Positions 49,408-50,816 of a DNA stretch of 64,000 bases are shown here, one piece after another. This DNA is from Ilumatobacter fluminis (GTDB lineage Bacteria; Actinomycetota; Acidimicrobiia; Acidimicrobiales; Ilumatobacteraceae), in NCBI RefSeq assembly GCF_004364865.1, contig NZ_SOAU01000001.1, forward strand, positions 2,512,001 through 2,576,000, read 5' to 3'. The notes beneath the pieces were generated by a model that had not been told where the DNA came from, did not search any database, and worked only from the letters and a program-made list of their open reading frames with translations. Numbering within the stretch: position 1 is the stretch's first letter; each line of letters starts with the position of its first letter. The position numbers and the translations under genes were made by a program.

Positions 49408-49614
49408 GTGCCCTCCCCCGACCCGACCTCCGCCGTCAACGAACTCTCGGTGATCGCCGACACGATCGATCGGCAACGCGAACGGGTGGGTGCGATCGCC
49501 GAACCGTTCCTCGGCACCGAGCGCGAGGACGTCGTCACGACCGTCCACGAGGCCGAACGCCAGCTCCTGATGGCGAGCCGAGCGCTGCAGCGCGCGATCC
49601 GCACCCTCCGCTGA
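49408..49614 (+). CDS. Small helical protein, unknown
   Basis: A 68-residue protein from a GTG at 49408, predicted almost entirely helical (NELSVIADTIDRQRERVGAI; EAERQLLMASRALQRAIRTL). No family is recognised and no membrane helix is present. It is divergent from hisC with about 70 bp between starts, and codon use fits a coding frame in this genome (GC-rich third positions). Coiled-coil or adaptor function is a guess. Confidence 0.55.
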   Translation: MPSPDPTSAVNELSVIADTIDRQRERVGAIAEPFLGTEREDVVTTVHEAERQLLMASRALQRAIRTLR

Positions 49615-49676
49615 ACGCAGCACGGCCACGTACCCGGAGCCGGTCCCGACGTGCAATCGCCGCCGAAAACGGGGAC

Positions 49677-49698
49677 GGCCCCCGGCGAACCGGGGGCC
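49677..49698 (-). terminator. Intrinsic terminator
   Basis: GGCCCCCGG (49677-49685) and CCGGGGGCC (49690-49698) form a 9-bp GC stem with a CGAA loop. On the minus strand it is followed by GTCCCCGTTTTCGG, so it terminates minus-strand transcripts coming from the mshD side. Since no minus-strand gene lies between it and mshD, an untranslated RNA is implied. Confidence 0.75.
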
Positions 49699-49830
49699 AT
49701 CAACCCTGAGCGCAGGGCGGCGGATCCCTGTATGCGCTCGACACCAGGTGGCGGGAACCTGGTGACCATCATCCTCTCAGGGACCGACCCCGACTTCAAA
49801 CATCGTCCGCCAGAACCGGCCGATTTCGGC
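49677..49830 (-). ncRNA. Candidate structured RNA upstream of mshD
   Basis: A gene-free stretch of 287 bp (49615-49901) that folds well. Stems seen by eye: CCCTGAG/CTCAGGG (49704-49710 with 49776-49782), GAGCGCA/TGCGCTC (49708-49714 with 49733-49739), CAGGG/CCCTG and CACCAGGT/ACCTGGTG (49742-49749 with 49757-49764). Some are mutually exclusive, which would suit a switching RNA. It ends, on the minus strand, in a strong terminator. I checked it against TPP, T-box, SRP and 6C patterns from memory and found no match. The strand is chosen from the terminator; the 5' end is a guess. Confidence 0.4.
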
Positions 49831-49901
49831 GTGATGACCTCCGTCACGTCACGGTCCGCGGTCGGACGACGACCGACCACCGCGCAGGTACCCTGACACG
49901 G

Positions 49902-50816
49902 GTGCGCATCACCGAGATCGCTGCAACACCAACCGCAGAACAACGCGAGCGCGCCCTCGCGTTCGTCGCCGGCGTCGAGACGACGACGGGTCGGCCGCAA
50001 CTGAGCGACCACCTCCGGATCGACCTCGGCCGCGACAGCGGTGACGCACACGGTGGCCCGCTCCTCGTCACGATGCACGACGACGACCGGTTGATCGCGT
50101 TCGCACAGCTCTCCGGCGCGAACGACGCCTGGGTGCTCGAGACCGTGGTCGACCCGGCGCTCGACGACGACATCGCCGTTCGCGACGACATCGCCGACAC
50201 CGCCGTCGACGCCCATCGTCGCCGACGCGACGACGCCGTCGTGTGGTGGCTGGACGATCCGTCCGCCCACGACCACGAGGTCGCGGCCCGACTCGGCCTC
50301 GCCGTCTGGCGAGAGTTGTACGAGATGCGCCGGCCGCTCCCCCATCCGCAGCAAGCCGATGTGGCCACCCGGTCGTTCCGTCCCGGCATCGACGACGAAG
50401 CCTGGCTCGGCATCAACAATCGGGCGTTCGCATCCCACGGCGAACAGGGCGGCTGGACACTCGACACGCTCCGGTCGAGATTCGACGAGCCCTGGTTCGA
50501 CCCCGACGGGTTCCGCATTTTCGACGACGAAACCGGTACCCCGGTGGCGTTCTGCTGGACCAAGCTCCACACCGACGGATCGCCGGTCGTCGGCGAGATC
50601 TACGTGATCGCCGTCGATCCATCCGCACACGGCCGCGGTCTCGGCAAGCAGCTCACCCTCGCCGGCCTCGATTCGATCTCCGATCGTGGTGTCACCGTCG
50701 CCAACCTCTACGTCGATGCAGGCAACACCGCCGCCGTCGGCCTCTACGAGCGGCTGGGTTTCACCATCCATCGTCGGCGCGTCGCGTTCGCTCCGCCCGA
50801 GCACGGCACCGCCTGA
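49902..50816 (+). CDS. mshD: Mycothiol synthase (GNAT)
   Basis: A 304-residue double-GNAT protein; MshD acetylates Cys-GlcN-Ins with acetyl-CoA in the last step of mycothiol synthesis, the actinobacterial thiol buffer. The C-terminal half shows the family signature NNRAFASHGEQGGWT ... EPWFDPDGFRIF ... FCWTKLH ... YVIAVDPSAHGRGLGKQL ... LYVDAGNTAAVGLYERLGF, with the acetyl-CoA loop GRGLGK. The N-terminal half is a degenerate GNAT domain, as usual for MshD. GTG at 49902. The gene alone places the organism in the Actinobacteria. Confidence 0.92.
   Translation: MRITEIAATPTAEQRERALAFVAGVETTTGRPQLSDHLRIDLGRDSGDAHGGPLLVTMHDDDRLIAFAQLSGANDAWVLETVVDPALDDDIAVRDDIADTAVDAHRRRRDDAVVWWLDDPSAHDHEVAARLGLAVWRELYEMRRPLPHPQQADVATRSFRPGIDDEAWLGINNRAFASHGEQGGWTLDTLRSRFDEPWFDPDGFRIFDDETGTPVAFCWTKLHTDGSPVVGEIYVIAVDPSAHGRGLGKQLTLAGLDSISDRGVTVANLYVDAGNTAAVGLYERLGFTIHRRRVAFAPPEHGTA

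Follow-up and report, generated by a model that had tools for sequence, protein, structure and literature searches.

The window, a 64,000-nt stretch of the Ilumatobacter fluminis genome, contains at positions 49615-49901 a gap that is flanked by a plus-strand ORF of 68 amino acids and by mshD. An earlier note on this DNA had described the gap as a gene-free stretch with strong and partly exclusive stems, ending in a minus-strand terminator. The features of the locus are as follows.

49408-49614, plus strand: ORF of 68 amino acids, convergent with the RNA; no match in Pfam or NCBIfam
49666-49766, minus strand: small RNA of about 100 nt, both ends being predicted from the promoter-like elements and the terminator
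49666-49706, minus strand: hairpin 3 (stem 49671-49706, UUCG loop) and U4 tail, together an intrinsic terminator according to the fold and the homologues
49708-49739, minus strand: hairpin 2, with a C-rich loop that contains UCCGCC at 49719-49724 (CCGCC in 49 of 49 loops)
49742-49764, minus strand: hairpin 1, with the C-rich loop UCCCGCC at 49750-49756 (CCCGCC in 48 of 49 loops)
49771-49776, minus strand: -10-like GAGGAT (an xAxxxT hexamer in homologues)
49794-49799, minus strand: -35-like TTGAAG, 17 bases before the -10 (TTG at the same distance in homologues)
49902-50816, plus strand: mshD (mycothiol synthase; TIGR03448, 207.8 bits, cut-off 163.1), divergent from the RNA and outside it

The sole ORF of at least 60 amino acids wholly within the gap (49651-49896, plus strand, 81 amino acids) matches no family in Pfam or NCBIfam, and a coding explanation was rejected on this ground; the stretch is gene-free in the sense of the earlier note, and the ORF list likewise has no minus-strand gene between the RNA and mshD. 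The minus strand of the gap folds with -156.6 kcal/mol (z -3.53), a value equalled by none of 200 shuffled sequences, which bears out the strong stems. On the plus strand z is -1.44 and 18 of 200 shuffles equal the fold, while a 151-nt core folds alike on both strands (z -2.31 and -2.30). A plus-strand riboswitch or mshD leader was rejected, since the terminator and the -10/-35 elements are on the minus strand and the plus-strand fold is weaker over the gap and equal over the core. The stems are also partly exclusive, as pairing of 49704-49710 with 49776-49782 would disrupt the outer stem of hairpin 2; the relatives favour the three-hairpin fold over alternative pairings (26- and 49-sequence alignments). 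The minus-strand terminator is present as well: the G+C-rich stem of hairpin 3 (15 pairs in the single-sequence fold) is directly followed by GUUUU at 49666-49670, and UUUU follows the stem in 22 of the 26 aligned homologues. A simple terminator scan did not list this hairpin. Taken as a whole, the gap beside mshD appears to contain an uncatalogued gene for a regulatory RNA of about 100 nt. Between the promoter of the RNA and mshD, a stretch at about 49815-49860 contains palindromic pieces; it resembles the corresponding sequence of the two closest relatives (G003 and G004) and is possibly the mshD promoter or operator.

Comparison with relatives defines the conserved part of the gap. BLASTN was run against the own genome and 60 relatives, 61 genomes in all, and a large part of its match list is short chance matches. 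It showed that 49663-49763 is kept in the genus of the window and that 49715-49763 is matched in many other families of the order. Common to the matches is a minus-strand layout of -35/-10 elements, ACCAGGU-UCCCGCC-ACCUGGU, a hairpin with a UCCGCC loop, a G+C-rich hairpin and, in most cases, a U run. The covariance model R1 matches the window RNA at 49665-49769 with 85.4 bits (G000:C1:2561665-2561769, minus strand). Covariance across related genomes had been proposed as a check, and it was found. In a plain MAFFT alignment of 26 homologues, which was not fitted to the model and left out L043 (whose loop match is spurious) and L046 (whose RNA is truncated at the end of the contig), 86.4% of 762 cells are paired and both partners have changed in 21 of 31 pairs; neither the paired fraction nor the pair count was reached by any of 500 shuffles. 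Sliding the structure by 1-3 columns reduced pairing to only 31.8-52.2%. The 49 model-aligned sequences are 91.3% paired, with 30 of 31 pairs changed on both sides, in an alignment that is fitted to the model. The alignments A2-A4 are all fitted in this way, and A3 and A4 also include chance hits up to an E of 1. Stem 1 is replaced in distant members, by GGAUCAGGU/ACCUGAUCC in L032 and by AUCGAGC/GCUCGAU in L097.

The loops behave differently from the stems. Mean column identity among the 49 homologues is 98% in both C-rich loops, 76% in the stems and 50% in 25 other unpaired columns, figures biased toward conserved loops by the gathering of homologues through sequence similarity; the terminator loop is variable in the same set. 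These alignments show both the common fold and the constraint on the loops, and fixed loops against variable stems would show the pattern expected of a loop needing a partner.

Elements resembling a promoter accompany the hairpins. All 49 homologues have an xAxxxT hexamer in position ahead of hairpin 1, against a mean of 23.3 and a maximum of 31 in 200 rounds of letter shuffling, and 19 of them have TTG at the spacing of a -35 element (shuffled mean 1.4, maximum 5), the arrangement in the window being TTGAAG-17-GAGGAT. From these elements and the terminator we infer that the RNA would start near 49764-49768 and end near 49666. Covariation and the promoter-like sequence of its own both argue for the untranslated minus-strand RNA leading away from mshD that the earlier note had suggested; the length of about 150 nt given there did not stand and is refined to about 100 nt.

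The reading that we prefer, with a probability of roughly 0.6, is that of a stand-alone trans-acting sRNA of about 100 nt that pairs with mRNAs via its two C-rich loops. To judge from the conserved sequence, transcription would start from a sigma-70-type promoter, immediately ahead of hairpin 1, and stop at the third hairpin. Hairpins 1 and 2 would expose the loops UCCCGCC and UCCGCC. The probable partners of these loops are G-rich GGCGG(G)A sequences close to the ribosome-binding regions of several mRNAs, and pairing may lower the translation of these targets, as 6C/B11 does in mycobacteria.

The search for targets in the own genome gave no enrichment of the loop-1 complement TGGCGGGA at 4-11 bases before RTG: 30 sites were counted, compared with 41 sites of the reversed word and with 37 and 36 of the controls read backward. 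One of the 30 sites is the opposite strand of the RNA gene itself, and inspection of all of them left one likely true gene start, that of an oligopeptide ABC transporter ATPase (L268), which may be due to chance because TGGCGGGA also falls in the end of the preceding ORF. A 19-base near-complement to the 5' part of the RNA, with one mismatch, is located just before an ATG elsewhere in the own genome (L267:1501-1522) and is probably a chance match, because the ORF there is without clear coding bias.

The absence of enrichment would fit the main rival explanation, in which the RNA is a decoy or scaffold for an RNA-binding protein that recognises both loops and is titrated or guided, without any pairing to mRNA. 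Two near-identical, invariant loops on variable stems fit recognition by a protein equally well, but we know of no candidate protein partner. We regard this explanation as rather unlikely, and the closest studied C-rich-loop RNAs act by pairing (PMC10470900, PMC12395582).

At gathering scores, a search of Rfam, which had been named as a check, returned nothing in the gap, and the three matches in the window are tRNAs elsewhere. A permissive search gave four matches in the gap, of which 6C RNA (RF01066) on the minus strand had the top bit score, 21.6 bits with an E of 1.1 and a cut-off of 47. No 6C match above the cut-off was found in the 61 genomes, and none at E<=10 in 20 homologous loci. CcsR1 (RF02791), whose name and Rfam description point to a stress sRNA with a C-rich motif, was matched by one of the 20 loci (L014) at 23.8 bits (E 0.16) and by none of the other 19; with this best score against a cut-off of 65.3, membership was rejected.

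The 6C RNA is about 100 nt long and has two stem-loops, each typically with six cytosines (PMC4046766). The B11 RNA has three stem-loops, two of them C-rich and the last an intrinsic terminator (PMC12395582), and in mycobacteria it represses mRNAs at ribosome-binding sites through its C-rich loops (PMC10470900 and PMC12395582); in M. abscessus, either of the two loops is enough to repress a reporter (PMC10470900).

The window RNA resembles 6C/B11 in its length of about 100 nt and in its three stem-loops, of which two are C-rich and the terminator is last. It could accordingly be supposed to be a diverged 6C of this class, or a recent copy, doing exactly what 6C does. The model R1 weakly matches Actinomycetia 6C: among 36 matches in 22 loci, the best eight are on 6C and on its strand, at 22.5-17.6 bits, and the next one down (15.2 bits) falls on the opposite strand; the four alignments displayed span all three hairpins. 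Both RNAs are linked to nth, but at different distances. Seven of 11 Actinomycetia genomes, from two families only, carry nth 9-18 kb ahead of 6C in the same orientation; of the remaining four it is 60 kb away in one, far off in two and not found in one. In some members of each, the promoters are also alike, with CTTGC or GTTGC at -35 and TGTATAGT at -10 (L101, L103, L104, L011, L019, L020 and L073); common elements of this kind may indicate common control. In contrast, the loops of 6C contain six or more C, while those of the window RNA, UCCCGCC and UCCGCC, have no six-C run, and the C-rich loops are the second and third in 6C but the first and second in the window RNA, whose terminator loop varies and is not C-rich.

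The own genome contains, outside the window, a second C-rich-loop RNA, which is described by the model R2. It occupies G000:C1:2619632-2619748 on the minus strand (L315:2958-3074), which is also the strand of the window RNA, at a distance of 58 kb. It is like the window RNA in having three hairpins, C-rich loops, a terminator and one full match per genome, but it has a different locus and its loops are mostly runs of C5-C6, the terminator loop included. Within the window's family, R2 matches 35 of the 37 genomes, the model having been built from 22 of the genomes counted. Every one of the 25 genomes of this family in which an R1 RNA is confirmed (the own genome and 24 others) has an R2 RNA too. 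Applied to 30 loci, a simple sequence rule places the R2 RNA ahead of a HAD-acyltransferase gene in 22. A HAD gene is also near 6C in L124 and L125, and its product is 34-39% identical to the HAD protein beside the R2 RNA, an identity that falls short of proving orthology, since further HAD paralogues of these genomes reach much the same similarity. In searches with one model against the loci of the other, R2 matches one of 22 R1 loci (17.5 bits) and R1 matches nine R2 RNAs among 22 loci (19.6-29.4 bits), one of them with only partial overlap. Against Actinomycetia 6C, R2 gave no convincing match (best 18.1 bits), and against Rfam the R2 RNA of the own genome gave no 6C match even at E<=10. 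The R2 RNA is probably the 6C RNA of the window's family.

The window RNA is therefore kept apart from 6C, because the Rfam score and the six-C loops fail, the C-rich loops are the first two and not the last two, and a separate C-run RNA is present in the same genomes. A diverged 6C orthologue, first taken up from the nth linkage and the likeness of promoters, was dropped as a lead once that C-run RNA had been found, and we now hold this explanation to be improbable.

Acidimicrobiia are actinobacteria that are mostly uncultured. At E<=0.01, R1 matched 52 of 296 sampled Acidimicrobiia genomes, a single time per genome (50 of them belong to the own order, the other 2 elsewhere in the class), and 7 of 246 genomes of a phylum-wide sample, all of the own order, so that outside Acidimicrobiia this sample has no match at that threshold; only a few first-look candidates (13-18) were scored per genome, which makes the absences soft. 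Weak matches elsewhere in the phylum have 28.4-19.2 bits (E 0.04-1), and those of 24.7-28.4 bits in other classes (G380:C1:1643833-1643933, G449, G473, G397 and G407) are perhaps chance or distant C-rich-loop RNAs. A scan for the loop pattern in one genome per species (84,980 species) found at least 120 loci. Among the 120 listed, which were picked by the exact loop pattern and so are uninformative on loop conservation, the scores are 49.6-105.9 bits for 117 and no higher than 23.2 bits for the other 3. Two of the 117 are labelled as other phyla, an Acidobacteria MAG (L189) and a Thermoanaerobacterales MAG (L224), which are likely mislabelled bins. Pattern matches in Rhodobacter, a Nitrospirae MAG, a Roseomonas MAG and one viral contig were set aside as chance (17.7-23.2 bits, the viral one 17.7).

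The neighbours of the RNA were counted over the same 120 loci without L158, L171 and L175. Of the 117 loci listed, 84 have nth at most 600 bp upstream in the orientation of the RNA, and 18 have mshD at most 600 bp upstream in the opposite orientation; downstream, the small ORF faces the RNA within 1500 bp in 51, and hisD and hisC are within 1500 bp in 59 and 33, respectively. These counts are lower bounds, as the 600 bp upstream are present in 103 loci and the 1500 bp downstream in 86. Where the neighbours change, the RNA keeps its form in these loci. In 11 Acidimicrobiia genomes nth is directly upstream on the same strand in seven, faces the RNA in one and is elsewhere in three. The own genome has a single nth match at the threshold used, 193.4 bits against a cut-off of 211.7 (G000:C1:3361288-3361845), away from the RNA, and mshD adjoins the RNA there because nth sits elsewhere. 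The best copies in the three genomes with nth away from the RNA (the own genome, G009 and G021) score 193-200 bits against the same NCBIfam cut-off; such scores suggest that the usual nth may have been replaced where it does not adjoin the RNA. In G009, a protein is 75% identical over 65 amino acids to that of the 68-aa ORF beside the RNA in the window. In G016, mshD is downstream of the RNA on the same strand.

The position between convergent nth and small ORF in many of the loci listed, together with the terminator at its end, would agree with a mere terminator or 3' UTR element that has no function as a free RNA. We consider this very improbable in view of the two further covarying hairpins with invariant loops, the promoter-like elements of its own and the persistence of the RNA in the window although nth is elsewhere.

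A cis-acting leader or riboswitch of mshD was rejected, since the RNA is on the minus strand and not upstream of mshD on its strand, and its terminator faces away from the gene; cis-regulation is also disfavoured by the relatives, in which the nearest gene upstream is usually not mshD. A regulatory role bound to mshD or to thiol metabolism, for which the divergent mshD start about 135 bp from the inferred RNA start in the window would speak, is scarcely credible, as the RNA runs away from mshD, nth is the upstream neighbour far more often than mshD, and the two are about 8 kb apart in G034. The connection with thiol metabolism that the earlier note had offered is thus not supported, and nothing pointing to it was found.

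In the literature that was searched, with preprints and most subscription papers outside its scope, no work joining Acidimicrobiia with 6C RNA was found, and among the papers that mention both Acidimicrobiia and small RNAs none, by title, concerns such an RNA; an earlier description is possible. Regulatory RNAs of Acidimicrobiia appear to be little studied. The window RNA and the R2 RNA would give RNA annotation two models, because neither matches Rfam above the cut-off. A common origin of the window RNA, the R2 RNA and 6C is possible. As a less probable reading, an ancestral loop-pairing RNA might have been duplicated and one copy re-seeded, which would leave the window's family with two sRNAs on one three-hairpin scaffold, one with a G-run target code (6C-like) and one with a GGCGG(G)A code, the second kept across much of the class. 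With its fixed loops on changing stems, the window RNA is a good test case for pairing by loop seeds, and together with the 6C-like RNA it lets one ask how two C-rich seeds share out their targets.
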